Shown here: in pieces, positions 5,211-61,821 of the stretch
How positions within the stretch are numbered: the first letter of the stretch is position 1
How the letters are laid out: every line of letters starts with the position of its first letter
Source of the DNA: a virus
Strand: one strand, 5' to 3'
Virus record (IMG/VR): IMGVR_UViG_3300034101_001021
Location: 1 to 63,400 of that record
DNA length: 63,400 nucleotides
Translations under genes and position numbers: made by a program
Notes under the pieces: model-generated
What the model was told of the DNA's origin: nothing
Databases searched by the model: none
The model's input: the letters and a program-made list of their open reading frames with translations, nothing else

Positions 5211-5230
5211 ACTGTAACATTTGTTACAGT
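5211..5230. promoter_or_regulatory. Operator-type palindrome
   Basis: ACTGTAACA, two bases, TGTTACAGT: perfect 9-bp arms. It lies 168 bases before the PAPS-reductase start. A possible promoter, TTGTAA (5191-5196) with TAACAT (5215-5220) and an 18-base spacer, would place the -10 box inside the palindrome, as expected for repression. One of a family of sites in this genome. Confidence 0.7.
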
Positions 5231-5351
5231 ACACGGCTCGGGGATGGCTAAGTCTTGCCCACCAACGGACAGGTGGTGATAGACAAGGTAGAAACAGCAA
5301 GAAGTTAAGGTCAAAAACAACAAAGGGGGATAACTCCCCCCAAAAATCGTT

Positions 5352-5366
5352 TGTAACTGTGTTACA
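5352..5366. promoter_or_regulatory. Operator-type palindrome, short spacing
   Basis: TGTAAC, three bases, GTTACA, with a further half site GTTACA at 5378-5383. It lies 31 bases before the PAPS-reductase ATG, within its leader and near the ribosome site (AAGGAGAG). The spacing is two bases shorter than in the full-length sites. Confidence 0.6.
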
Positions 5367-5397
5367 GTTGGAACATAGTTACATCAAGGAGAGCAGC

Positions 5398-6180
5398 ATG
5401 GATCCCTTCAAGATTACGGAACCCACCGTCATATCGTTCTCTGGTGGTCGTACATCTGCGTATCTACTCTGGCGTGTTCTTCAAACCAACAATGGTCTGC
5501 CGGCTGATGGCCTTGTCGTCTTTGCCAATACAGGGAAAGAAGAAGAGGCGACTCTGCGTTTTGTCCGTGACTGCGAAGTCAATTGGGGCTGCGAGATTCA
5601 TTGGCTGGAGTTCCAAATTGAAGACCCGAAGTTCCGTCGCGTGAACTTTGATACAGCCAGCAGGAATGGCGAACCTTTTGAGGCGCTCATTCGCAAAAAA
5701 AAATACCTTCCAAACATGGTCGCAAGATTTTGCACTCAAGAGTTAAAAGTGCTGACCATAGACCGTTATCTCAAAAGCCTCGGTCATAAAAACTACCTTT
5801 CGATGGTTGGTATAAGGGCAGACGAGCCGCGCAGAGTCACCAAGATTCGCGGACAAGAAGACAAGTTCTGTCCTCTAGCCGACGCCCAAGTAACGGAGCA
5901 ACAGGTGTGGCGATTCTGGGATGAGCAACCTTTTGATCTTGCATTGCCAAAAATGAGTGGTGCATCTAACTGCGACCTTTGTTTTCTAAAGGGTGGTCAG
6001 ATCGTAATGGGATTGATAAAACAAAAGCCAGAACGTGCGGTCTGGTGGGCAAGTATGGAGGAGAAGATTGGCGCTAGATTTAGATCAGACCGCCCCTCAT
6101 ACGCTCAGATGGCCAAGTTTGCCAAAGACCAACAAAATTTATTTACCGACGAAACTATCCCGTGTTACTGCGGGGACTAA
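5398..6180 (+). CDS. PAPS reductase-family protein, IbrA-like
   Basis: 260 residues from the ATG at 5398, chosen for its AAGGAGAG site; the open frame extends upstream but through the palindrome region. It has the ATP-pyrophosphatase loop SGGRTS (residues 15-20), F-C-T-Q-E-L-K and a CDLC and CYC cysteine set near the C-terminus. Family members activate sulfur or bind nucleotides; phage copies probably do not serve sulfur assimilation. The next gene encodes a ParB-like protein, the pairing known from IbrA/IbrB, which together activate prophage-borne genes in Escherichia coli. A role in gene control or nucleic-acid modification is inferred. Confidence 0.75.
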   Translation: MDPFKITEPTVISFSGGRTSAYLLWRVLQTNNGLPADGLVVFANTGKEEEATLRFVRDCEVNWGCEIHWLEFQIEDPKFRRVNFDTASRNGEPFEALIRKKKYLPNMVARFCTQELKVLTIDRYLKSLGHKNYLSMVGIRADEPRRVTKIRGQEDKFCPLADAQVTEQQVWRFWDEQPFDLALPKMSGASNCDLCFLKGGQIVMGLIKQKPERAVWWASMEEKIGARFRSDRPSYAQMAKFAKDQQNLFTDETIPCYCGD

Positions 6181-6191
6181 AGGAGAAGAGC

Positions 6192-7004
6192 ATGAAACTT
6201 ACCGAAATCCGTACCGACGGCGGCACCCAGGCCAGGGCGCAGCTGAACCAAGAAGTAGTCAACGAGTACGCAAATCAGATGCAGGACGGGGTGGTCTTCC
6301 CGCCTGTCGTGATCTTCAATGACGGCTCAAAAAACTGGTTGGCTGATGGTTTTCACCGGTACTACGCCCACCGGCAGAACGGCGCGTTAGACATAGAAGT
6401 AGAAGTCCACAGCGGGACGGTAGACGACGCTACCCTGTACGCCTTTGGTGCCACCAATCGACGCGGCCTATCGTTCACCCGCTCAGATCTCACCGAGATC
6501 ATCGGCAGAATTAATAAGCATCCAGTCTGGAGCACCTGGTCTACCAGAAAGATCGCAGAGCATATTGGTTGTTCGCATATGACGGTCAGTCGTATCCGTA
6601 GTTCCTTTGAGGAGGCCCCTAAAAAGGTCTCCTACACCCGCAACGGGGAAGAGAAGACCATGGATACCTCCGCGATAGGAAAGACCCCTAAGAAGCCCAA
6701 AGAGAAGCCTCCCGAGGCGATAGAAGAAAACAATGTCCCAGAAGAATTGATAGATGAAATAAATAAACTATCGGAAGAGAACGAACGATTGAAAGATGCT
6801 ATCGCCATCGGTCAGTTGGATGTCAGCGACATTGAGAAGGCCGACATCGAGGACACGGTTAGGGAGTTGCGGGAGCAGCTGCGGGTCAAAGATGTAGAGA
6901 TCCTGGCTCTCAAAGAAAGCCGTGACATGTATCAGAATGAGAACGCGGAACTCAAGCGCACGGTTAAGTCACTACAGGCCAAACTCAAAAAGGTGGAAGG
7001 ATGA
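6192..7004 (+). CDS. ParB/Srx-fold protein with HTH and coiled coil, IbrB-like
   Basis: 270 residues from the ATG at 6192 (AAAGGAGAAGAGC before it). Residues 1-95 form a ParB-like domain with the D-G-F-H-R-Y motif near residue 52, equivalent to the G-x-x-R nucleotide-binding motif. Next come a helix-turn-helix (STRKIAEHIGCSHMTVSRIR), a basic linker and a long coiled coil to the end. It starts 11 bases after the PAPS-reductase gene, so the two are one unit. A DNA-binding partner of the PAPS-reductase protein is likely; a partition role is not supported because no ParA is present. Confidence 0.75.
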   Translation: MKLTEIRTDGGTQARAQLNQEVVNEYANQMQDGVVFPPVVIFNDGSKNWLADGFHRYYAHRQNGALDIEVEVHSGTVDDATLYAFGATNRRGLSFTRSDLTEIIGRINKHPVWSTWSTRKIAEHIGCSHMTVSRIRSSFEEAPKKVSYTRNGEEKTMDTSAIGKTPKKPKEKPPEAIEENNVPEELIDEINKLSEENERLKDAIAIGQLDVSDIEKADIEDTVRELREQLRVKDVEILALKESRDMYQNENAELKRTVKSLQAKLKKVEG

Positions 7005-7200: not shown

Positions 7201-8676
7201 ATGGAACTAGCATTACGCGATCACCAAATGCGGACTATCGACGCATTGCGGGAGGGATTCAAGCAGGGCCACAGATGCCAATTGCTATACGCTCCCACAG
7301 GTACAGGTAAGACCGAGATGGCAATTTATCTTATGAAAGCCACCTCGGAAAATTATAAACGCTCTGTAATGTTGATGGACAGGATTGTTCTGGTGGATCA
7401 AACAAGCGCCAGGTTATCCAAGTACGGAATAGAGCACGGGGTCTACCAAGCAGATCACTGGAGATACAGGCCCCTTGAAAAAATTCAAGTCTGTTCAGCT
7501 CAAACTCTTGAGCGTAGAGATAACTTTCCCCAGACAGAACTACTAATTATAGATGAATGTCATATAAATCGACGCCAGACACTAGAGTTCATCAAGTCAC
7601 GGCCAGAGATGAAGGTCATTGGATTGACCGCTACGCCATTCACAAAGGGTCTGGGGGATGTCTATACCCATGTGGTCAACGGCAGCACCACGGACTTTCT
7701 GGTAACGAATAAGTGGCTGGCTCCGCTGCGGGTCTACATTGCCAAAGAGATCGACATGACTGGGGCCAAGAAGGTAGCAGGCGAGTGGTCTCAGGATGTT
7801 GCAACCGAGCGCGGCATGAAGATCACGGGCGACATCGTGGAGTCATGGATCACCAAGACTCATGAGGTATTCGGACGTCCTAGGAAGACGATTGTCTTTT
7901 GTTCTGGGGTTCAGCACGGCGCAGATCTGGTCGCAAAGTTTGCAGAGCGTGGCTATAACTTCGTGTCTATCAGTTACAAAGACGACGACGAGTTCAAACG
8001 CCAGGCCATCGAGGACTTCAGTAAACCAGACACAACGATTCACGGTCTAATCGCAACCGACATACTAACTCGCGGTTTTGATGTCCCCGATGTGATGATT
8101 GGCGTATCAGCACGACCGTTCTCTAAGTCTCTGTCCTCCCATGTGCAGCAGATGGGCCGTGTAATGCGTTCGTATTCCGGCAAAGAGTACGGCCTCTGGC
8201 TGGATCACTCGGGCAATTACCTGCGGTTCCGTGACGACTGGGACGAGGTATTCAATGACGGTGTGAAAGAACTGGACGATTCAAAAGAAAAGTCCAGGAA
8301 GGAACCGACAGAGAAAGAGAAGAAAGAATCCAAGTGTCCCGCGTGTGGGCATCTATGGCCCAAGGCAGCACTCAGTTGCCCGGCGTGTGGTCATGTAAAA
8401 CCACGGCGCTCATTAGTTTCAGAAATCCCAGGCGAACTACAGGAACTAGGCCAGACCGTCAGGAGAGATGATCGGCAGTCCTTCTATTCACAATTGATCT
8501 ACATTGCCAATGACCGTGGATATGCAAAGGGGTGGGCAGCGCACAAGTACAAAGAAAAGTTCGGTGTCTGGCCCCGTGGTCTTGAGGAAGTCACCAAGGT
8601 TCCAGAGTTCACGACAATGAATTGGATTCGGAGTCGACAGATCGCCTGGGCCAAGAGTAAACGGAGGTTAGCATGA
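7201..8676 (+). CDS. Superfamily 2 DEAD/DEAH-type helicase, RadD-like
   Basis: 491 residues with the full helicase set: GTGKTEM (about residues 33-39), D-E-C-H (118-121), LTATP (about 142-146) and Q-M-G-R-V-M-R (about 317-323). Two zinc-ribbon knuckles follow, CPACGHLWPK and CPACGHVKPR, the layout of RadD, a bacterial repair helicase. It probably unwinds or remodels phage DNA during replication or recombination. No primase or DnaB-type helicase is seen nearby apart from the TOPRIM protein two genes on. Confidence 0.85.
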   Translation: MELALRDHQMRTIDALREGFKQGHRCQLLYAPTGTGKTEMAIYLMKATSENYKRSVMLMDRIVLVDQTSARLSKYGIEHGVYQADHWRYRPLEKIQVCSAQTLERRDNFPQTELLIIDECHINRRQTLEFIKSRPEMKVIGLTATPFTKGLGDVYTHVVNGSTTDFLVTNKWLAPLRVYIAKEIDMTGAKKVAGEWSQDVATERGMKITGDIVESWITKTHEVFGRPRKTIVFCSGVQHGADLVAKFAERGYNFVSISYKDDDEFKRQAIEDFSKPDTTIHGLIATDILTRGFDVPDVMIGVSARPFSKSLSSHVQQMGRVMRSYSGKEYGLWLDHSGNYLRFRDDWDEVFNDGVKELDDSKEKSRKEPTEKEKKESKCPACGHLWPKAALSCPACGHVKPRRSLVSEIPGELQELGQTVRRDDRQSFYSQLIYIANDRGYAKGWAAHKYKEKFGVWPRGLEEVTKVPEFTTMNWIRSRQIAWAKSKRRLA

Positions 8677-9458: not shown

Positions 9459-10291
9459 CATTTGAAGACTTCGCCCGTGCTCATGGTCTCGTCATCAATC
9501 AAGCCATTCACAATCGATGGGTGGCGACGCCCACGACAGATCACCCTCACAAACGGAACGGTAGATACAAGTTGATCGGGGATATTGGGTGGGTGCAGAA
9601 CTGGGCAACCATGGAAGGCCCGGCGATGTGGAAGTCAGACAAACCCGTCGCCATTCGTCCCGTCATGATCAAAGATGACCGCGCAGAACTGGCGGCAAAG
9701 GCGGCAAAGAAAGCGGCCTGGATTCTCAATCAATGCGAACTAAAGACGCATCCGTATCTGGAGAAAAAGGGATTCCCGAACGACCGGGGCAATGTCTGGG
9801 AGACCGAAGGAAAGAGCCTCTTAGTTATTCCCATGCGGCGGGCGGGCAGACTTGTCGGATGTCAGATGATAAGCGCAGAGGGGGAAAAAAAGTTCTTGTA
9901 TGGTCAGGCTACGAAAGGCGCAGCCTTCATGATCGATGCAAAAGGCATCCCCATTTTCTGCGAGGGTTACGCGACCGCCCTGTCCATAAGAGCCGTCATG
10001 CAGGCCATAAATATGCGCTACACGATCTACTGCTGTTTTTCGGCAGGGAATATGAAGGAAGTAGCGCGGAGCATCGTCGGGGGCATCGTCATCGCGGACA
10101 ATGACGCCAGCGGAACCGGTGAGAGATTTGCCCTTGAGATAGGCAAACCGTACTGGCTCGCCCCCACAACCGGGCACGACTTCAATGACGCACACCAAGT
10201 CGAGGGGGTGTTCCATGTCTCACAATCTCTCAAGAAAGTGTTGATAAGTGCGAAGCGAGTTTCCGTTGAAAATGGGCCTCAATCTGCCTGA
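9455..10291 (+). CDS. TOPRIM-domain protein, primase-like
   Basis: 278 residues. The C-terminal half is a TOPRIM domain: the glutamate motif IFCEGYATALS (Glu near residue 170) and the D-x-D motif I-A-D-N-D-A-S-G (near 215-217). The layout matches small phage and plasmid primase-like proteins that lack the helicase part. It may prime DNA synthesis with the RadD-like helicase. There is no zinc finger at the N-terminus. Its 3' end overlaps the converging sigma-like gene by 62 bases. Confidence 0.8.
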   Translation: MTFEDFARAHGLVINQAIHNRWVATPTTDHPHKRNGRYKLIGDIGWVQNWATMEGPAMWKSDKPVAIRPVMIKDDRAELAAKAAKKAAWILNQCELKTHPYLEKKGFPNDRGNVWETEGKSLLVIPMRRAGRLVGCQMISAEGEKKFLYGQATKGAAFMIDAKGIPIFCEGYATALSIRAVMQAINMRYTIYCCFSAGNMKEVARSIVGGIVIADNDASGTGERFALEIGKPYWLAPTTGHDFNDAHQVEGVFHVSQSLKKVLISAKRVSVENGPQSA

Positions 10292-14486: not shown

Positions 14487-15290
14487 ATGAAACTCAGTCG
14501 TAAAGCAATGAAGGAAGCACTAGACACAGTACCCATGGATGTCGTCCTACTGGGTAGTGCCGGCGCATCAGGGGAGAAAAGGCTTAGCCCAAAGGAAATA
14601 GAGTTTGCCAGGGCGATAGCACTCGGGGAAAGCAAGGCGGGCGCATACAGAAAAAGCCGACCAAATAGCAAGGCAAAACCAGAGAACCAGAGCCGAAGGG
14701 GTCAGGAGCTGATGAAGAAAAGCGCAGTACAAGCGCAAGTCGAAGCCTTCCAGCGGGCTATTGAGGCGCAAAGATATCAAACCCCTGCTCACTTGCGGGC
14801 TCTGGTCATCCACCAGCTTACCGAAGCGGCCCTGAACCCTGACTTTCCACCGGCTACCAGGGTGAACGCACTCAAGGCGCTGGGCACAGTTACCGAAGTC
14901 GCGGCATTCACAGAGCGGCGCGAAGTTATCAAGTCCACCGATTCCACCGAGGCTCGGGAACGCCTGCTCGCAAGCCTACGCATGGCCATGCAGTCGCAAG
15001 CCGTGGATGTCGATGCCAACGATCTATTGGCAGAACTCGCACCCGCCCCCATGCGAAACGCGGCAGACGCAGACCCCGCCACCCCCACCCCCCAAGACTG
15101 TAGCGATGAGGAGGGGCTAACTACGCATAGTAATCCGCACAACCAATCGTCAGACTGTAACAACTTTACAGACACCCCATCCAATGCCTGTACCAATTTT
15201 ACAGGGGGGGATCTAAATTTTCCCGATGGCTCTGTAACGCCGGATATAGAAGATACCCCCCCTTATGAAAAGGGTACCCCTGAAAAGTGA
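14487..15290 (+). CDS. terS: Terminase small subunit (TerS)
   Basis: 267 residues. It has the features of TerS: a helix-turn-helix-like N-terminal domain (LSPKEIEFARAIALGESKAG, Y-R-K-S), a helical oligomerisation middle and a long disordered acidic C-terminus. It recognises the packaging site and loads TerL. TerL follows after one small gene. Two weak palindromes of the operator type lie within the codons of the disordered tail (15155-15171 and 15187-15205). Confidence 0.75.
   Translation: MKLSRKAMKEALDTVPMDVVLLGSAGASGEKRLSPKEIEFARAIALGESKAGAYRKSRPNSKAKPENQSRRGQELMKKSAVQAQVEAFQRAIEAQRYQTPAHLRALVIHQLTEAALNPDFPPATRVNALKALGTVTEVAAFTERREVIKSTDSTEARERLLASLRMAMQSQAVDVDANDLLAELAPAPMRNAADADPATPTPQDCSDEEGLTTHSNPHNQSSDCNNFTDTPSNACTNFTGGDLNFPDGSVTPDIEDTPPYEKGTPEK
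15155..15171. promoter_or_regulatory. Degenerate operator-type repeat within terS
   Basis: CTGTAA, five bases, TTACAG. It lies in the disordered tail codons of terS, about 140 bases before the main operator cluster. A looser relative, CCTGTA/TACAGG, lies at 15187-15205. Confidence 0.35.
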
Positions 15291-15292
15291 GT

Positions 15293-15313
15293 ACTGTAAC
15301 ATTATGTTACAGT
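15293..15313. promoter_or_regulatory. Operator palindrome, 10-bp arms
   Basis: ACTGTAACAT, one base, ATGTTACAGT: perfect 10-bp arms, followed by GCAA. It begins two bases after the terS stop and is first of a cluster in the 126-base gap before the LexA-like gene. Confidence 0.75.
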
Positions 15314-15364: not shown

Positions 15365-15402
15365 ACTGTAACATGATGTTACAGTGCAAGTAACAGTGTT
15401 AC
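15365..15402. promoter_or_regulatory. Paired operator palindromes
   Basis: ACTGTAACAT, G, ATGTTACAGT (15365-15385), then GTAAC AGT GTTAC (15390-15402). The last copy ends 14 bases before the LexA-like gene, overlapping the position of its ribosome site. A degenerate GTAACAGTGATAC (15341-15353) lies between the two main sites. The extended match TACTGTAACA...TGTTACAGTGCAA recurs at 15292 and 30543. Confidence 0.75.
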
Positions 15403-15416
15403 GGCAAGGATAGAAA

Positions 15417-15644
15417 ATGACGGATGCTCAGAGAGAGATATATGTAGTGATAGAGGGCTGGTGGAATAAGTTTGGTTATGGGCCGTCTATAGACAATATT
15501 ATGCTTGTGACTGGGGACAAGGGCCGTGGGAATGTGCATAGGAAGATCAAGGCGTTGCTGAAGGCTGGCTACTTGAAAGGTCGGCCTAGGGCGCCGAGGT
15601 CTGTGAGGCCGTCGTATATGCGGGTTCACAAAGTCGTTAAGTGA
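15417..15644 (+). CDS. LexA-type DNA-binding domain protein
   Basis: 75 residues with the LexA winged-helix layout: L/T-x-x-Q-x-x-I-Y-x-x-I, G-Y-G-P-S-I-D-N-I, then NVHRKIKALLKAGYLKG and a basic tail. The protease half is absent, so it cannot self-cleave. At least three operator-type repeats lie directly upstream, so autoregulation is the simplest model. It overlaps TerL by GTGA and would set packaging-gene expression. Confidence 0.6.
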   Translation: MTDAQREIYVVIEGWWNKFGYGPSIDNIMLVTGDKGRGNVHRKIKALLKAGYLKGRPRAPRSVRPSYMRVHKVVK

Positions 15645-17137
15645 AGATATTAGAGATCCTTGATGCTCTTCCTGAAGGGGAGAGGGAGTCTTTAGTTCAG
15701 ATGGCTCTACAGTATCAAGAGGCCATGTCTAGGGAGGCGGGGCAGAAGCAGTTCTTGTCCTTTGTGAAGACGATGTGGCCGGGGTTTATTAGTGGCCGAC
15801 ATCATGCTGTCATGGCAAAGAAGTTTGAAGAGATCGCTGAGGGGAAGCTAAAGAGGCTGATCATCAATATGCCGCCTCGACATACAAAGTCAGAGTTTGC
15901 TTCTTTCTTGTTGCCGGCGTGGTTTTTGGGAAGGTTCCCAGATAAGAAGATCATCCAGACTTCCCATACGGCAGAACTTGCTGTCGGATTTGGTCGGAAA
16001 GTTAGAAACCTGGTTGATAGCGACGCGTATGCAAAAGTCTTCCCTAATGTAGCCCTACGGCATGACTCCAAAGCGGCTGGACGATGGTCTACTAATAAGA
16101 GCGGGGAATACTTTGCTATTGGTATCGGGGGTGCTGTAACAGGTAAAGGGGCGGATCTACTGATTATTGACGATCCACACTCGGAGCAAGAGGCTGCTTT
16201 AGCCGAGATCAACCCTGAGATCTACGATAAAACGTATGAATGGTTTACCTCTGGTCCTCGTCAGAGGTTACAGCCTGGCGGGTCCATAGTCGTCGTTATG
16301 ACTCGATGGTCGAAGAAAGATTTAACCGGCCAAGTCTTAAAAGCAAGCGCCCAGAGAGAGGGGGATGAGTGGGAAGTTATCGAGTTCCCCGCGATTCTTC
16401 CGTCTAAAAAGCCTCTATGGCCTGAGTTCTGGCCGTTAGAAGAGCTACAAGCACTTAGAAATGAGCTGCCAAACTCTAAATGGATGGCGCAGTATCAACA
16501 AAATCCGACGTCAGAGTCGGCTGCGATCATCAAAAGAGAGTGGTGGAGGACATGGATACACGATGACCCTCCTCAGTGTGACTACACATTGATGTCTTGG
16601 GACACGGCGTTTGAAGCAAACAACCGAGCTGACTACTCGGCCTGTACTTTATGGGGGATATTTGATCATCCAGACGAGACTGGCACCCCTCAGTCGAACA
16701 TTATTCTTCTAAACGCCTTTAGAGACAGGATGGAATTCCCTGAATTGAAGAAAAGGGCAATTCAGAATTACAAAGATTGGGAGCCAGACTCAGTAATTAT
16801 TGAGAAAAAGGCGTCAGGTGCCCCGTTGATTTATGAGTTACGGGCCATGGGTATCCCTGTACAAGAATTTACCCCTGTCCGGGGGAACGACAAGATAACA
16901 AGACTTAATGCCGTATCAGATATTTTTGCTTCTGGGAGAGTTTGGGCGCCGACTACGCGTTGGGCCGAAGAAGTTGTAGATGAAGTAGCGGCATTTCCTG
17001 CTGGAGAACATGACGACTATGTAGACGCAACGTCTCTTGCCATCATGAGGTTTCGTAAAGGGGGCTTTATCCGTACACTATTAGATCAAGAGGACGACCC
17101 TCCCACACTTAGACGGCGAAACGAGCCGTATTACTGA
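15641..17137 (+). CDS. terL: Terminase large subunit (TerL)
   Basis: 498 residues from a GTG overlapping the previous stop (GTGA). ATPase part: Walker A-type MPPRHTKSE (residues 77-85) and Walker B LLIIDD (173-178), followed by T-R-W coupling motif. Nuclease part: S-W-D-T-A-F-E (near residue 320) and H-D-D-Y-V-D-A (near 456). It drives DNA into the head and cuts it, docking on the portal encoded next. Confidence 0.95.
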   Translation: MKILEILDALPEGERESLVQMALQYQEAMSREAGQKQFLSFVKTMWPGFISGRHHAVMAKKFEEIAEGKLKRLIINMPPRHTKSEFASFLLPAWFLGRFPDKKIIQTSHTAELAVGFGRKVRNLVDSDAYAKVFPNVALRHDSKAAGRWSTNKSGEYFAIGIGGAVTGKGADLLIIDDPHSEQEAALAEINPEIYDKTYEWFTSGPRQRLQPGGSIVVVMTRWSKKDLTGQVLKASAQREGDEWEVIEFPAILPSKKPLWPEFWPLEELQALRNELPNSKWMAQYQQNPTSESAAIIKREWWRTWIHDDPPQCDYTLMSWDTAFEANNRADYSACTLWGIFDHPDETGTPQSNIILLNAFRDRMEFPELKKRAIQNYKDWEPDSVIIEKKASGAPLIYELRAMGIPVQEFTPVRGNDKITRLNAVSDIFASGRVWAPTTRWAEEVVDEVAAFPAGEHDDYVDATSLAIMRFRKGGFIRTLLDQEDDPPTLRRRNEPYY

Positions 17138-25961: not shown

Positions 25962-26208
25962 GTCTCCAGCCTGGCAGCGTAAAGAAGGCAAGTCTGAAAA
26001 AGGCGGTCTTAACGCCAAGGGACGTGCTTCCTACAACGCTGCCAACCCTAGCAAGCCTGGCCTTAAAGCTCCACAGCCTGAAGGCGGTGCTCGTAAAAAG
26101 TCCTTTTGCGCCAGAATGACCGGCATGAAGAAAAAGCTGACTTCAGCCAAAACCGCCAATGATCCCAATAGCCGTATCAATAAGAGCCTCAGGGCGTGGA
26201 AATGCTAA
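25954..26208 (+). CDS. Small basic protein, DUF6321-like
   Basis: 84 residues, very basic. Pattern A-W-Q-R-K-E-G-K-S, G-G-L-N-A-K-G-R-A-S-Y, G-L-K-A-P-Q-P-E-G-G, S-F-C-A-R-M and a terminal W-K-C. I recall this as a widespread phage protein of unknown function (DUF6321-type). First of a run of basic proteins in the virion region; DNA binding within the head is possible. Confidence 0.65.
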   Translation: MAKSPAWQRKEGKSEKGGLNAKGRASYNAANPSKPGLKAPQPEGGARKKSFCARMTGMKKKLTSAKTANDPNSRINKSLRAWKC

Positions 26209-26457
26209 ATGGAAATGATGCTTTGGAATATCGTGTTAAGCGCGATAGTGGCAATCATGGGAATGATGCTTAAGGGCAAGTTTGATGAACTCAACCGCCT
26301 AAGTATCCTGCTTAACAGGACTCGGGAGGAAGTGGCGCGGGAACATATCACTCGTGCTGAAGTACGGCAAGACCTGGATAAGATCCGGGAACATTTTGAT
26401 GATGGCTTCCGCAGACTAGAGGCCAAACTTGACGCGATGGCGCAGAAAAGGATTTGA
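26209..26457 (+). CDS. Membrane-anchored coiled-coil protein
   Basis: 82 residues: one N-terminal span (MLWNIVLSAIVAIMGMML) and a charged coiled coil to the end. It might be an Rz-like spanin part or virion membrane protein, but lies far from the lysis genes. Confidence 0.6.
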   Translation: MEMMLWNIVLSAIVAIMGMMLKGKFDELNRLSILLNRTREEVAREHITRAEVRQDLDKIREHFDDGFRRLEAKLDAMAQKRI

Positions 26458-29714: not shown

Positions 29715-30367
29715 ACTACACGGAACTGACCGCTGCAATTAAGGGCTATGCAGAAAATGATTTCCCAGAGACTGTGGGGAGTTTTACCTCTGCATCCCAG
29801 ATAGCCACGTTTGTCCAAGAGGCTGAGCAGCGGATCTACAATTCCATTCAGATTCTTGCCCTGCGGAAGAACTCGACTGGTACGGTTACGGGAGGAAGTC
29901 AGTATTTGACCGCCCCTGTAGACTGGTTGGCAACTTTCTCTTTGGCCGTGATTGACCCGGTTACGGGAGAGTACGAGTACCTTCTGGACAAGGATGTGAA
30001 CTTCATCCGCCAGGCGTATCCGTACCCGACGACATCAGGCAAGCCCCTGTACTACGGGTTGTGGGATGAAAATACGTTCATTCTCGGGCCGACACCGGAT
30101 GTTAACTACGTTATGGAGCTGCATTACTTCTACTATCCAGAGTCAATAGTGACGGCTGGAACGTCCTGGCTTGGCGATAACTTTGACTCTGTCCTTCTGT
30201 ACGGGGCTTTGCTGGAGGCTGCGGCGTTCATGAAGAGCGACCCAGATACAATAGCCAACTATACGGCTCGTTACGGTGAAGCCATGGATGTGCTCAAACA
30301 GCTCAGCGAAGGTAAGAACAGGTCTGACGCCTACAGAAACGGGCAGATTAGGGTTCCAATTAGATGA
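29711..30367 (+). CDS. Phage adaptor / tail tubular A-like protein
   Basis: 218 residues from GTG at 29711, overlapping the previous stop by 4 bases. N-terminal helices (IATFVQEAEQRIYNSI), then D-W-L-A-T-F and G-K-P-L-Y-Y-G-L-W-D-E-N-T-F-I-L-G-P-T-P-D, a pattern typical of the podovirus adaptor proteins that join portal and nozzle. Fits its place upstream of fibre genes. Confidence 0.65.
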   Translation: MNYTELTAAIKGYAENDFPETVGSFTSASQIATFVQEAEQRIYNSIQILALRKNSTGTVTGGSQYLTAPVDWLATFSLAVIDPVTGEYEYLLDKDVNFIRQAYPYPTTSGKPLYYGLWDENTFILGPTPDVNYVMELHYFYYPESIVTAGTSWLGDNFDSVLLYGALLEAAAFMKSDPDTIANYTARYGEAMDVLKQLSEGKNRSDAYRNGQIRVPIR

Positions 30368-30780
30368 TCGTTCAGACGCAGACCACCTCTTTCAAAGAGG
30401 AACTCTACGAAGGAATCCACGACCTTTTGACGGATACTTTGAAGATGGCTCTGTATACGGCCAACGCAGATCTAAACGCTGCCACAACCGTCTACACAAC
30501 AGATCAAGAAGTGTCTGGAACAGGGTATACAGCCGGGGGAGATACTGTAACAAATGTTACAGTGCAATCATCTGGGAATACTGCATACGTCAATTTTGAC
30601 AATGTCCAGTGGCCTGGCGCCTCGTTTACTACCCGTGGAGCTTTGCTCTACAACGCTAGCAAAGCAAACCGTTCGATTGCGGTCATCAATTTTGGTTCCG
30701 ATAAGATTGTAAATAACGGTACTTTTACCGTAACTATGCCTGCCAACACGGCCACAACCGCCCTGATAAGGTCAACCTAA
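30364..30780 (+). CDS. Virion protein, fibre-region
   Basis: 138 residues, beta-rich, with A-L-Y-T-A-N-A-D-L-N, G-T-G-Y-T-A-G-G and W-P-G-A-S-F-T-T-R-G-A. I recall this as a common phage protein encoded beside tail genes. Codons 61-66 carry a perfect operator-type palindrome (30544-30563). ATGA overlap with the adaptor gene. Confidence 0.65.
   Translation: MIVQTQTTSFKEELYEGIHDLLTDTLKMALYTANADLNAATTVYTTDQEVSGTGYTAGGDTVTNVTVQSSGNTAYVNFDNVQWPGASFTTRGALLYNASKANRSIAVINFGSDKIVNNGTFTVTMPANTATTALIRST
30544..30563. promoter_or_regulatory. Operator-type palindrome inside a virion gene
   Basis: ACTGTAACA, two bases, TGTTACAGT, then GCAA as at 15293 and 15365. The encoded residues are T-V-T-N-V-T-V-Q. 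Nine-bp perfect arms plus shared flanking bases argue against chance, but no promoter is obvious here. Confidence 0.5.
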
Positions 30781-58100: not shown

Positions 58101-60341
58101 CAAGAAGTAATTGATAACTGGAACAAGGCTTACAAGCACTATGTTCCCTTGAATCGTGAGGAAGCTGACTACGATGTTAAGAACGTTGGTGTCGGCGTAG
58201 GGTCTGGTTTTGCTATCAAGGGGCCGTTTAGCAGGGCGTCAGTAGGTTCTGGACGCAAGGTTGTGGACATCCTGGCCAACGTTGCTATGCAGCGTGAGCG
58301 GGCTATCATCCGGGCAGAAAAGCTCCGTGTGGCTAAAGCTACCTATGCTCTGGCAGTGACTAATCCCAACCCTGGATTCTGGTTGCCATACGATCCTTAC
58401 ATCAAGAAAGACCCGCAGCAGCTTGTCAATGATCTTATCTCAATGGGGATCAACCCGTCTGACGCACAGAACATTGCTGACACGCCGACTCGTAGAGAGG
58501 TTGATAAGGCAACCAACACTGTCAAAGAGATACCGAATGAACGGTTGATCACGGGCGCATTGTCGTTACCTATCCGTATTAACGGGGAAGAGAAGTTCTT
58601 AATCTTTAACTCCAACGATCCTCGGGCAGTGCGGATGGTGGAGTCGTTGAAGAACCTGGACGTTGATCAGCTTAGTAAAGCGCTAAGCATTTCTCAGGCG
58701 TTTACTCAATACTTCGCTAAGATCAACACACAGTACAACCCGATCTTCGGCGGAATCAACTTCCTGCGCGACGTTCAAGGTGCGATGTTACAGCTCAGCA
58801 CTACTCCTATTGCTGGTAAGCAGAAGCAAGTTCTTGCTGGTGTTATGCCTGCGCTCAGAGGTATATATGGGGAAGAGCGAGCGAGACGCAAAGGACAACC
58901 CTCTACAAATCGTCCCTGGGCACAGCTCTGGGAAGAGTTCCAGAAAGAGGGTGCACAGACCGGCTTTAGAGATATGTTTAGCCGTAGTCAAGAGCGGGCA
59001 GAGGCGCTGCAACGAATCCTCGATCCCTCATCTTGGACAAAGAGCAAACTTGGGAAAGTATTTACAGCAGGCGGGACGCTCAAGGTACCAGCAGAGATGG
59101 CCCGTAAAGCAGCCACCCCAGTCTTTGATTGGCTGTCTGACTACAACCAAACGATGGAGAACGCGGTTCGTCTTGCTGCGTATAAGGTAGCGCTTGATCA
59201 GGGAATGACGAAGCAGCAGGCAGCATCGGTCGCCAAGAACCTTACGGTGAACTTTAACCGCAAGGGGCAGATTGGCCGGCAGATGGGCGCCCTGTATGCG
59301 TTCTTCAATGCTTCTGTCCAGGGTACAACCCGGATGTATGAAACTTTGAAAGGTCCGGCTGGGAAAACAATTATTGGGGGAGGACTTATCCTTGGTGCGC
59401 TTCAAGCCATGGCACTTGCGGCGGCAGGATTTGATGAAGATGAACCACCTGAGTTCATAAAAGAGCGGAACATTGTTCTGCCGACTGGCGGATCAAAGTA
59501 CATCACCATTCCAATGCCGTTGGGATACAACGTTATTCCTAACACCAGCCGTATCGTTACAGAGTGGGCGCTTTCTGGGTTTAAAGATACGCCCAAACGG
59601 ATCGGCAGCATCCTCTCGGCGACGCTGGATATGTTCAACCCGCTTGGCAATGCTGGGTGGTCGGCTCAAACGATAACGCCTACCGTCTTAGATCCTGTTA
59701 TTGCTCTTACGGAGAACGTGGATTGGACTGGTAAGCCAATTGCAAAAGAAGACATCTCTGGGCTTGACCCTACGCCTGGGTATACACGGGCTAGAGAGAC
59801 GGCCAGCATCGTTGGAAAAGGCCTGTCCGAGTTCCTGAACTACGCCTCGGGTGGAACAAAGTACACCCCTGGAGGGATTAGCCCAACCCCAGATCAGATC
59901 GACTACCTGATAGGACAGTTCACTGGTGGTGTTGGCCGGGAGGTTATGAAAGTTGAACAGACTCTTCGTAGCCAGGTTACAGGCGAAGATCTGCCGATTT
60001 ACAAAGTGCCCCTAATCGGGCGCTTCGTTGGCGACACCCAAGGTCTTGCTGCCGAACGTAACCGCTTTTACAACAACATCATGCAGCTCAATAAGCATGA
60101 GCGGGAGATCAAAGGTAGGCGCGAGAACCGGGAGAACGTCCAGGAGTATCTGATGGACAATCCTGACGCCAGGCTCTTCTCTTACGCTAATCAAGTCGAG
60201 CGTAACCTTCAAGCCCTACGTAAGCGCCGGGATGCTCTGTTAGAGAGGGATGCCCCGAAGGAGCAGGTCAAGGCGGTTGAGAACCAGATCGCTGTTCAAA
60301 TGAAGCGGTTCAACGACAGGGTGGCAAACGCTCAGAAGTAA
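52140..60341 (+). CDS. Giant polyvalent virion protein with JAMM, HExxH-like and LPD38-type regions
   Basis: 2733 residues. Order: two short repeats (NPQTGEVLFLVNNQW and NPDSGQMAYLVNNEW), hydrophobic spans (about 165-255), Pro-rich linker (about 343-530), coiled coil, QLSLF (888-892, sliding-clamp-type motif), a RadC/JAMM domain with H1025-x-H1027, S1035 and D1038, a later domain with H-E-I-M-H (1658-1662), and a C-terminal helical region (about 2190-2400) of LPD38 type. Such phage polyvalent proteins travel with the DNA and act in the host at once. Possible actions are protein or DNA deconjugation and proteolysis. It ends 10 bases into the converging resolvase gene. Confidence 0.75.
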   Translation: MQRAVNPQTGEVLFLVNNQWTAPLQTARNPDSGQMAYLVNNEWQVLDPFKQEEKGFLESVFGVTPQQFAEAAKPEPFTREVLDVPLKIAEGTVSTTRAITEAFGANNAAAQNIRGVEKYLAELASAQSKQDSQAIAAIMKDAEDKGIGEQLKAALSAFATAPVDFLAQAAGSSVPILLGAVAGVPGLVTTAGLTGAGVVKGTIYDTVKEELKKAGASEKEAEERAMAAQEYGGENLDMILAGTALGAVAGRTGVEKYILGKIAAKQAAQQAAQKGAVRQAVETGVTEAVPEAIQAGQEQLAANIAAQREGLDVPTFRGVAGQAALEAIAGGALGAGIGAAGEAGPAAPPVPPTATPPAAAAPTPAAPPTAAAPPTVVTPVTPTGAPPGTTPSPVVPIPPGPDLLGGYADAGNNIEVRIAPTPDGRFQVIYVDGNSGQSSDAGIFDDFDGANATAAMLVGVNPATFAPPAAPTPPAAPTPPTTPVSTTPTPPTIPVGTTPTPPTGVPPTTGLTPPSIPTGTTTTAAAAPKRPAKEIQVDINKARQDLRKAETAFKNNQVGQEAVDFAAARLSTLEAEKTTLKAPEVPAEVMAPEVEAVPELPAKGPKTAFEEKMFGKEPILSEEELVARKDISEKQRALNAQYNRIKGTKGFSNLADFLSGRAAQPAKVEGADRPLPDGMLVLDEDLKRIDFGLGKGATLKRNNLVSKTGRGRPLQQLIEDEQLNDFLPDDLKIFVRAEDVYDPNEFAKVRNAVDYIIERFENNDFLTEDDKMALRLIDEDIQKLSQEMTLEQVNARLAEIAAEERAGEVEAIAPPVSEEGVRGAAPTTVRESSPEERRQADLERDLFRLTPPAVPERTTPPGAQRDLFGAAGYTPENVTKRKKENAQQLSLFDQSPLPPNEDNKAGADARREAVSTVDALQSTDTPLALAMSTDYARRQRVSLVGQTLTGYDDLAVLSQVYRHPRFETFRMFFVNDKGEVVSQLGVSSRLPASAVAIVGDDSVAYMKKVQDAAVKGGATGVWMLHNHPSGNVEVSQADKNLTKAFTENFDKLAYKGHIVIDTNKYSLITPEGDVKTLSKDMGQKDLVKVAPFTASEIFNPIEMAQRVDQNPSSMVVVAINNSAKVTGITTISNDFFEGKTRDQARRALYKLSIANIGGRLAVASRDAKALDKVAPMVEDGILIQPDGSYKRFSSMYTFRTKFLFPDERPGVVTPDTSKLFDFLRVPKVPRTDGPGVYRWSDARKLMEQQVTIKVQEPQEDLFGDDAKTLNQINEELPKAKKKLPPGRSPELAAMAEQLQAGLLTKEEYDAAVNKYRPIPVYTEPLVPATDEQVVNALSSDKKPKANVSIPDGTKVGLRLDIPAWNNHKTFVVSIHEGRPKPTSAKPGLAIGYRSVAMVKNVTFALSNQAKALEIAAGQAKDALQTMEGEYVNVSPAEAYQMAQQAIKDPRYVQLGFDPTRHAYFFDRATTLPVVKADAVLQIGNMILARGVEYGSKQNFLYNIDATAPVTEVEVDAGRITSRDEQIAEYTRLRAKRSQLVKEYVAQGPSIELQRNIALTDELAKQLKEDIDASAEPSRSPENFLRRALDAYEKGDLSPEVLATIRDAYVKTPWTLNGLRLSVRKPKEDKSSGNFQPFARVVTLWNGTSGIEDPSTVRHEIMHSLEQMMTADQRKVVIDSWQDALKAAVKKSTDAQSLLFFENVLKFLDTPSDSSFAATVQSMPSYDFYQYLSPSEYWAVNAEKLFAAKLGTQWERFKSAVRKLVESMKKVFGFDNRLGVHKVFDRLMKDQPERMGYPMLVDFVTSTGARAMVPQNVSKNIFGQPMPKASWGSPDDSKIDDILYVLQDKNIDTKRVVQKITAQRKSLIDSWNPYLQEELYHGRTAKQTEDFLKDELEPLMKALRDRNLTMDQVEEYLQNRHAEERNIQNAKRDPTMPDGGSGILTADAQAYLAALTPKQKKDFDDIAKMVDDIVRGTQDLIVSSGQEKQEVIDNWNKAYKHYVPLNREEADYDVKNVGVGVGSGFAIKGPFSRASVGSGRKVVDILANVAMQRERAIIRAEKLRVAKATYALAVTNPNPGFWLPYDPYIKKDPQQLVNDLISMGINPSDAQNIADTPTRREVDKATNTVKEIPNERLITGALSLPIRINGEEKFLIFNSNDPRAVRMVESLKNLDVDQLSKALSISQAFTQYFAKINTQYNPIFGGINFLRDVQGAMLQLSTTPIAGKQKQVLAGVMPALRGIYGEERARRKGQPSTNRPWAQLWEEFQKEGAQTGFRDMFSRSQERAEALQRILDPSSWTKSKLGKVFTAGGTLKVPAEMARKAATPVFDWLSDYNQTMENAVRLAAYKVALDQGMTKQQAASVAKNLTVNFNRKGQIGRQMGALYAFFNASVQGTTRMYETLKGPAGKTIIGGGLILGALQAMALAAAGFDEDEPPEFIKERNIVLPTGGSKYITIPMPLGYNVIPNTSRIVTEWALSGFKDTPKRIGSILSATLDMFNPLGNAGWSAQTITPTVLDPVIALTENVDWTGKPIAKEDISGLDPTPGYTRARETASIVGKGLSEFLNYASGGTKYTPGGISPTPDQIDYLIGQFTGGVGREVMKVEQTLRSQVTGEDLPIYKVPLIGRFVGDTQGLAAERNRFYNNIMQLNKHEREIKGRRENRENVQEYLMDNPDARLFSYANQVERNLQALRKRRDALLERDAPKEQVKAVENQIAVQMKRFNDRVANAQK

Positions 60342-60781
60342 GCTCTCCGTAGCCACTCAGCTAGGAGAAGGGCCTCTGCCCTGCCGTTATCCTTCACTCT
60401 CTCAAGAGGAGAGTCTGGCCATAACTCTCGGGCCAAGACCAGGCTGTCCTTCTTGTCTGCCGTCAGTCCCATGTCCTTCTTCCAGACCCTGGGTGGAACA
60501 AGTTCAAACTGAGAGAACCGCGTTGCGATTGCAAGAGCAGCGCCATAGGCCATCCCAAACTTGAAGGAGCTTGATACACCCTGCTTCGGCATAGCATGTA
60601 CGGCCTCCACCACCACCATCACATCGTCTAATTGCCTGGCCTGCATGATGTCTCGGGACACTTGGTTGGTGTCTATCCAGCGGTCGTTATGCTTCATATC
60701 CCCGCAGGCAACGAAGTCCCCATGGTGATTTACAAGGCCCCATGCACCGGTGAATCCAGGGTCAATTCCAAGGTAGACCAT
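60332..60781 (-). CDS. RuvC-like Holliday junction resolvase
   Basis: 149 residues. RNase H-fold acids: G-I-D-P-G-F-T-G (D near 7), V-V-V-E-A-V-H-A (E near 59) and D-N-G-R-A-E-A-L-L-L-A-E near the C-terminus. Resolves branched DNA before packaging. It is the sole minus-strand gene in the right half, with AAGGAAAAATT before its ATG and an operator palindrome 26 bases upstream. Confidence 0.85.
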   Translation of the reverse strand: MVYLGIDPGFTGAWGLVNHHGDFVACGDMKHNDRWIDTNQVSRDIMQARQLDDVMVVVEAVHAMPKQGVSSSFKFGMAYGAALAIATRFSQFELVPPRVWKKDMGLTADKKDSLVLARELWPDSPLERVKDNGRAEALLLAEWLRRAYF

Positions 60782-60806: not shown

Positions 60807-60833
60807 TGTACTGTAACATAATGTTACAGTACA
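60807..60833. promoter_or_regulatory. Longest operator palindrome, 13-bp arms
   Basis: TGTACTGTAACAT, one base, ATGTTACAGTACA: perfect 13-bp arms (27 bases in all). It lies between the leftward resolvase gene and the rightward recombination operon, 29 bases before the -35 box of the latter. It can affect both directions. Confidence 0.8.
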
Positions 60834-60861: not shown

Positions 60862-60890
60862 TTGCTATATGCACGATCAGAAGCTAGTAT
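60862..60890 (+). promoter_or_regulatory. Promoter of the recombination and early operon
   Basis: TTGCTA (60862-60867), 17-base spacer, TAGTAT (60885-60890), 31 bases before the nuclease ATG, with AGGAGAG as ribosome site. It probably drives 60922 through the join to about 4673. Confidence 0.7.
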
Positions 60891-60921
60891 ATTGCATAGG
60901 AACAATATAACAGGAGAGAAC

Positions 60922-61821
60922 ATGAAGCTAACGAACAAACACAACATACCAGAGACGTTCCTCAATGTCTTGAAGCGCCCGACTTATTCAAAAGGTAAAG
61001 CCCATCTCTCGGCTACGCAGCTACTCAATAGCCCGAAGATTGTGGCTCTGACCAAGAAGTTTGAGGACGAGCTAGAGACGGATGTTGCTGACATGGTATG
61101 GAGTATCTTTGGTACAGCCGTTCATGGCGTACTGGAGCATGGCAAGGCAGACAACCATATCGTCGAGGAGCGGCTACACGCTACCTTGGAGGGCTGGCGT
61201 ATCTCTGGGGCCGTAGACTTACAGATCTTAGATGAGATGGGTGGGATCGCCATACGGGACTACAAAACCACCTCGGCATGGGCGGTGATGAACGAGAAGA
61301 TAGACTGGGAGAATCAGTTAAACATCTACGCTTGGTTGGTCGAGACTGCCAAGCATGACCATCATGTGAGCAACCTAGGCATCGTGGCCATTATCCGGGA
61401 CTGGTCGCGGCGGGAGGCAACAAGGAACCCAGACTACCCCCAGGCGCCCATCAAAGAGATTCCTATCAAGCTATGGCCCTATCAGGATCGAGAGGAGTAC
61501 ATAGCCAGGCGGTTGTCCCTGCACTCAGCCTGTGAGTTTGCTATGGAGACGGATGAGGATCTGCCCCCATGCACCCCTGATGAGATGTGGGAGCGGCCTA
61601 CAACCTACGCTATCAAGAAGAAGGGTGGCGTCCGGGCTATCAAGGTATATGAAGTCAAGGAGGAAGCGGAAGCTGCGCTTGATCCCAAGACGCAAGAGTT
61701 GGAGGTCCGTCCGGGCAGTCGGACCCGTTGTGAATCATTCTGCCCAGTCAACACGTACTGCCAGCAATGGCGGGACTATCAGGAGAGCATCAATGGAAAC
61801 AAGACAGGAACTGCTGCTTAA
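60922..61821 (+). CDS. PD-(D/E)XK exonuclease (RecB/Cas4-like)
   Basis: 299 residues from the ATG at 60922; the longer frame starts in the promoter. Core motifs: I-F-G-T-A-V-H-G-V-L-E-H, G-A-V-D (D near 98) and I-R-D-Y-K-T-T (D113 and K115). A C-terminal cysteine set C-E-S-F-C-P-V-N-T-Y-C (C270, C274 and C280) may bind iron-sulfur, as in Cas4/AddB. It should make single-stranded DNA for the ERF protein. Confidence 0.8.
   Translation: MKLTNKHNIPETFLNVLKRPTYSKGKAHLSATQLLNSPKIVALTKKFEDELETDVADMVWSIFGTAVHGVLEHGKADNHIVEERLHATLEGWRISGAVDLQILDEMGGIAIRDYKTTSAWAVMNEKIDWENQLNIYAWLVETAKHDHHVSNLGIVAIIRDWSRREATRNPDYPQAPIKEIPIKLWPYQDREEYIARRLSLHSACEFAMETDEDLPPCTPDEMWERPTTYAIKKKGGVRAIKVYEVKEEAEAALDPKTQELEVRPGSRTRCESFCPVNTYCQQWRDYQESINGNKTGTAA

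Follow-up and report, generated by a model that had tools for sequence, protein, structure and literature searches.

Dispersed palindromes of an uncultured aquatic phage as candidate sites of a ParA-less ParB-like protein

Described ParB-type systems and the phage locus

ParB-parS and Noc-NBS are described systems close to the phage locus considered here; ParB R173 hydrogen-bonds guanine 1 of parS, and Noc Q173 reads adenine 1 (PMC7383237). KorB of plasmid RK2 is a ParB-family global regulator with dispersed operators (OB) (PMC11790492), and phage N15 encodes a ParB-type protein, SopB, with several inverted-repeat sites (IR1-4) in the phage genome (PMC7205306). There is also precedent for a mobile element borrowing the ParB system of another replicon: the integrative mobilizable element SGI1 is reported to hijack IncC parABS (PMC10954446). 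A survey of ParB-CTPases describes phage ParB folds as widespread and, in the part of it available to us, reports no sites of the kind described below (PMC12704722).

The phage system shares with ParB-parS and Noc-NBS a ParB_N fold plus HTH, the geometry of a 16-bp palindrome (in the form with a 2-bp spacer) and the pairing of a residue equivalent to position 173 with the base 7 bp from the dyad, Lys or Arg going with G. It differs in that the core is TAACA, not TTCAC, the spacer is 1-3 bp, the dimer domain is a predicted coiled coil, no ParA was found, the sites lie near operon starts and the terminase genes, and the arms drift rapidly between phages. As with KorB, the sites are dispersed and, by position, lie at several operon starts including that of the protein's own operon, and the phage model matches KorB structures 8qa8 and 8qa9; however, no KorA equivalent was identified in the phage and the site itself is different. 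N15 has SopA, a linear plasmid prophage and GC-rich sites, whereas here neither the ParA ATPase (PF13614; 14 of 14 controls positive) nor a tyrosine integrase (PF00589) was found in the window or in nine relatives, which makes classical prophage partition unlikely. Relatives that carry a canonical parS may, judging by sequence, borrow a ParB system as SGI1 does.

Palindromes of the window and its relatives

The stretch of DNA that we analysed (the window) is positions 1 to 63,400 of IMG/VR virus record IMGVR_UViG_3300034101_001021 (63,400 nt). The pattern TGTAAC-N(0-8)-GTTACA matches it six times, far above the 0.03 matches expected, and none of 100 dinucleotide shuffles reached six. One 7-bp palindromic arm repeats at five places; arms of this length occurred at one place at most in 29 of 30 shuffled genomes and at two places in the remaining one. 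Perfect ACTGTAACA-N2/3-TGTTACAGT palindromes number five (5211-5230, 15293-15313, 15365-15385, 30544-30563 and 60810-60830) and weaker copies start at 5350, 15154, 15338 and 15387, those at 5352-5366 and 15390-15402 being shorter. Re-reading the sequence recovered every copy listed in a preliminary description of this DNA, including a weak one in terS, which is an imperfect palindrome, and arms of up to 13 bp. Three loci are distinguished: locus A is the 3' end of terS plus the gap before the LexA-like gene and terL, locus B lies between the resolvase and the exonuclease, and locus C is upstream of the PAPS-reductase/ParB operon. The features are as follows, sites being given without strand.

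5211-5230: site C1, ACTGTAACA-TT-TGTTACAGT, in front of the PAPS-reductase/ParB operon; L059, G001 and G004 have it at this position
5350-5368: site C2, TTTGTAAC-TGT-GTTACAGT, a short way before the PAPS-reductase start (5399)
5399-6180, plus strand: PAPS-reductase-like gene, first of the ParB operon (Pfam PF01507 5e-7, phrog_424 1e-55; scanned as ORF 5221-6180)
6192-7004, plus strand: ParB-like protein, 270 aa (phrog_1033 4e-19; ParB/Spo0J by profile; model and Foldseek)
6480-6605, plus strand: HTH of the ParB-like protein, residues 97-138, recognition helix 129-138 (DSSP of the model; Pfam HTH_23)
6576-6578, plus strand: codon of residue X129 (His in the window), the best column for predicting the half-site base
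7201-8676, plus strand: helicase downstream of the ParB-like gene, used as control tree gene (Pfam ResIII/DEAD/Helicase_C)
14487-15290, plus strand: terminase small subunit, terS (phrog_51 0.003; position before terL)
15154-15172: imperfect site in the 3' end of terS, 3 mismatches
15293-15313: site A1, ACTGTAACA-TTA-TGTTACAGT, conserved in L007, L049 and L050
15338-15356: imperfect site between A1 and A2, 5 mismatches
15365-15385: site A2, ACTGTAACA-TGA-TGTTACAGT, from the sequence
15387-15405: imperfect site GTAACA-G-TGTTAC, immediately preceding the ribosome-binding region of the LexA-like gene
15417-15644, plus strand: LexA DNA-binding-domain-only protein, 75 aa, adjoining locus A (Pfam PF01726 6e-7; 80 related loci)
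15641-17137, plus strand: terminase large subunit, terL (phrog_38 5e-111)
30544-30563: coding site ACTGTAACA-AA-TGTTACAGT in a phrog_644 gene (30364-30780), under codon constraint
60332-60781, minus strand: Holliday junction resolvase, divergent from the exonuclease (phrog_1770 2e-21)
60807-60833: site B, ACTGTAACA-TAA-TGTTACAGT, arms perfect over 12-13 bp each side; conserved in G001, G002 and G003
60922-61821, plus strand: PD-(D/E)XK exonuclease, start of the recombination operon (Pfam PF12705, phrog_2139 1e-51; scanned as ORF 60862-61821)

The site at 30544 does lie in a coding region, as had been noted, and is probably no coding accident because its codons are fixed in close relatives at 7 of 7 positions versus 32 of 105 elsewhere. 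In window positions 15200-15280 and at locus A of many relatives, G-runs and C-runs recur at the 3' end of terS; these are possibly part of a packaging site.

A scan of viral contigs with the exact pattern gave 56 stretches, almost all of them belonging to relatives of the window phage, and the relatives' sites fall at the same three loci; in L035 and L052, counterparts of C2 precede ParB or PAPS genes, and terS of L005, L031 and L034 contains several copies. Among 137 loci selected by the ParB protein, 94 palindromes lie in A, B or C (296 kb) versus 12 elsewhere (1,777 kb), a 47-fold higher density, with about half of these loci giving no called site, partly because they are fragments. Many LexA-carrying relatives also have no recognisable palindrome. 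Five contigs (L026, L028, L042, L058 and L060) carry the exact pattern but are not recognisable relatives, and were set aside as probable cases of chance or of an unrelated hairpin.

The arms are specific to each genome (CTG-, CAG-, CCT-, CTT-, GGG-TAACA and others) and common to distant loci within it. At loci picked only by the LexA-like protein, the upstream palindromes keep the (G)TAACA core and the outer arms change symmetrically. Searching for repeated palindromes de novo, we found CAGTAACA in G005, ACACCTTAACA in G009, CTGGCAAC in G010, TGTCAAC in G012 and TGGAAC in G011, each at distant loci, and in several genomes the top repeated palindrome was a different variant at the same loci. 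Because variant arms are shared by distant loci of one genome, a trans-acting protein appears to read the sites. The idea of a phage-wide operator, put forward in the preliminary description, is supported as far as a phage-wide, operator-like family of sites read in trans is concerned; control of transcription is plausible. Sigma-70 scans near the sites gave matches at shuffle level, and since no strong promoter match overlaps the sites, an operator role is read from their position.

The variable spacing is also real. Spacers of 1, 2 or 3 bp recur in relatives, and two different spacers occur within single genomes in six cases. Spacer length differs by locus class, B being mostly 1 bp (9/14) and A mostly 2 bp (21/30) or 3 bp (Fisher p 1e-4); the A and B sites of the window have 3 bp, one more than parS.

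A hairpin would also give perfect arms and changes that compensate each other on the two sides, and one terminator-like match spans 15293-15313 on the minus strand. We nonetheless find it extremely unlikely that the palindromes are hairpins (terminators, structured RNA) or mobile palindromic repeats and not protein sites: the loops would be only 1-3 nt, most copies are without a T-run, the positions include those between divergent genes, and the exact arm is shared genome-wide, which structure alone would not demand.

The site-bearing phages are a large family of uncultured aquatic phages. Two cultured relatives, DSL-LC04 and Pag-Yong1, lack such sites over those parts of their genomes that were read; Pag-Yong1 (L588) has GGTTCAG-N-CTGAACC at 15 places, several between genes, and these are probably terminators. 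In another phage (MW202545, ctpbd312; L590), TACTAGTC-N-GACTAGTA occurs 8 times, including 10176 and 10203, two of the copies being inside its ParB-like gene, and this is possibly the ParB site of that phage. Prophage-type or distant bacterial ParB-like genes (L620, L599, L622, L593) carry palindromes, GTGGAATCGGATTCCAC or GTGGTAACCGTTACCAC, inside their own linker-coding region, where they encode the peptides VESDST or VVTVTT; the linker-type palindrome of a Pelomonas MAG is also present in a TerS-like gene. In the literature that we searched, on operators of phage ParB proteins, on VESDST repeats and on parS in phages, we found no description of such a system.

The ParB-like protein and the half-site base

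The ParB-like protein was found in all near-complete relatives examined; a single-sequence scan for homologues gave 2 loci only, and alignment-based searches worked. It is placed in the ParB family as follows: (i) the best profile match to ParB/Spo0J is 3e-9, and PF02195 was detected in 14 of 36 family members; (ii) the predicted structure (mean pLDDT 82) has an N-terminal ParB_N domain of the ParB_N/Srx type, a central HTH whose recognition helix starts at X129, the residue that covaries with the site, then a beta hairpin and, beyond a disordered linker, a long coiled coil; and (iii) the best Foldseek matches of the model are ParB, Noc and KorB (7bnk, 7ng0, 1vz0; KorB 8qa8, 8qa9). Of the CTP-binding boxes, G53-x-x-R56-x-x-A59 and N88..G92 are largely kept, but the full motifs GERRxRA and ENxQR are different. 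The predicted coiled coil (183-269) takes the place of the canonical ParB dimerisation fold. The flexible spacing fits a ParB-type protein, because in the prediction a disordered linker joins the DNA-binding domain to the coiled-coil dimer domain.

When the HTHs are sorted by site, residue X of S-X-MTV-[SG]-R (X129) follows the base beside the TAACA core. With sites called by a fixed rule, X129 was Lys, Arg or His in 16 of 17 cases with G and in 1 of 23 with other bases. The residues were K12, H2, R2 and A1 with G; S9, A4, N1 and K1 with A; S5 with T; and one each of A, Q and P with C. The association has a Fisher p of 2e-8 on 38 genomes, a value that ignores phylogeny. A plain mutual-information ranking was discarded, helicase and exonuclease columns scoring equally high, and because that measure is confounded by phylogeny we adopted independent pairs and a column scan. 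On the helicase tree, the independent G/non-G pairs, few in number at six, gave five concordant, one tie and none discordant, and X129 was the most accurate of the 270 ParB columns (0.95). At least five concordant pairs were also reached by three other ParB columns, one helicase column and one primase column. The two exceptions to the rule, G003/L321 (Ala with CTG) and G007/L366 (Lys with CTA), are informative: G003 is an intermediate genome with many mixed CTA/CTG half-sites, and G007 has three further GTAACA sites.

Aligning G-[CV]-S-X to G170-K171-S172-R173 makes X129 the equivalent of R173 of Caulobacter ParB. In the 2-bp-spacer form the phage base lies 7 bp from the dyad, the same distance as guanine 1 of parS. 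Changing TT to AA turns parS TGTTTCA into the half-site TGTAACA, whose 2-bp-spacer form has parS geometry.

Two other readers had been proposed alongside the ParB-like protein, an RHH-like protein and the LexA-like protein. Among those early genes that were searched with Pfam and PHROGs, no RHH protein turned up. In relatives carrying both, the LexA-like gene lies directly downstream of the locus A sites, as might suit a protein reading the sites and repressing its own gene and other loci; we also counted for it the outer half-site TACTGTA, which we take to resemble the E. coli LexA half-site. We regard this explanation as decidedly unlikely. The LexA-like helix GRGNVxR is constant while the arms change from CTG to CAG, CCT, AGG and GGC (an invariance that is partly selected, because one search pattern contained GRGN), L041, L093 and L094 have a nearly identical helix and wing beside three different arms, and no LexA column covaries well with the half-site base or reaches five concordant pairs; on these grounds the protein was rejected as reader of the variable arms. 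The 75-aa protein shares the LexA DNA-binding domain but has no peptidase domain, and the LexA-type CTGT-N8-ACAG is not matched, the spacing in perfect copies being N10 or N11. The ParB-like protein, with its covarying X129, is the best-supported candidate reader of the three.

It is also conceivable, if highly unlikely, that TerS reads the palindromes of locus A as packaging (pac) sites. Locus A overlaps the 3' end of terS, the TerS-like gene of the Pelomonas MAG also carries a site, and in other phages canonical parS is close upstream of terL. However, the same sequence recurs far away at the exonuclease and ParB operons, the spacers differ by locus class, and TerS columns covary only weakly with the half-site base, none of them reaching five concordant pairs.

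Canonical parS at the terminase locus and the proposed mechanism

Where the window has the variant TGTAACA-N-TGTTACA, several relatives have a canonical or near-canonical parS in place of the locus A site. G016 and G018 combine canonical parS at locus A with a ParB reduced to its coiled coil (ORF of 88-95 aa); these free-standing ORFs (G016 26031-26297, G018 9626-9913) persist after loss of the DNA-binding half. G021 and G022 have parS near the TerS/LexA genes, with no ParB match in their 31-kb records, and G015 has canonical or near-canonical parS with a full ParB. L549 and L556, the only parS carriers among the 137 full-ParB loci, have it at locus A. L549 retains a palindrome of its own at B. 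It thus seems that a host ParB can serve site A, with B following the phage protein. In six further contigs (L409, L435, L446, L449, L477 and L518) a related terL is preceded, at a distance of 18-136 bp, by canonical parS; this is another indication that phage terminase genes come with host ParB sites. The cultured Pelagibacter phage HTVC027P (L589) has a parS-like sequence, GTTTCACGTGAAACA, near terS at 16413. The canonical parS of some relatives points to a possible recruitment of host proteins, and a host regulator might then read the sites in the window phage as well; we give this almost no weight, as the arms track the phage-encoded residue X129.

We favor the possibility that the palindromes are sites of the ParB-like protein (6192-7004), with parS-like loading at locus A and KorB-like operators at B and C, and put its probability at roughly 0.78. 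A ParB-like dimer, held by the coiled coil and a flexible linker, would bind half-sites 1-3 bp apart. At the terminase locus the phage ParB would load in the manner of ParB at parS, perhaps forming a CTP clamp, and host ParB could therefore stand in where a phage carries a real parS; we infer that locus A resembles a parS-type loading site more than an operator. At loci B and C the protein would act as an autoregulatory operator protein, KorB-like, controlling the recombination genes and its own operon. The favoured picture is thus a regulator akin to KorB, whose loading site at the terminase genes is parS-like and which, from the sequences, may load, spread and repress.

The terminase-side site and ParB could further form an exchangeable module, a proposal for which we consider the odds even. 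The site would load either the rapidly drifting phage ParB or, after a parS swap, the host chromosomal ParB, some phage ParBs then having shrunk to a coiled coil, and a ParA-less ParB would serve gene control, genome organisation or packaging, not segregation.

In this way an orphan palindrome family has become a candidate regulatory system of a large group of uncultured aquatic phages, one that would pair ParB with its sites and do without ParA. The evolution of protein-DNA specificity has left a natural record here, intermediates included, that follows the same residue-base rule as laboratory work on ParB and Noc. Whether phages borrow a host chromosome-segregation protein at the terminase locus can be tested in the parS-bearing relatives.
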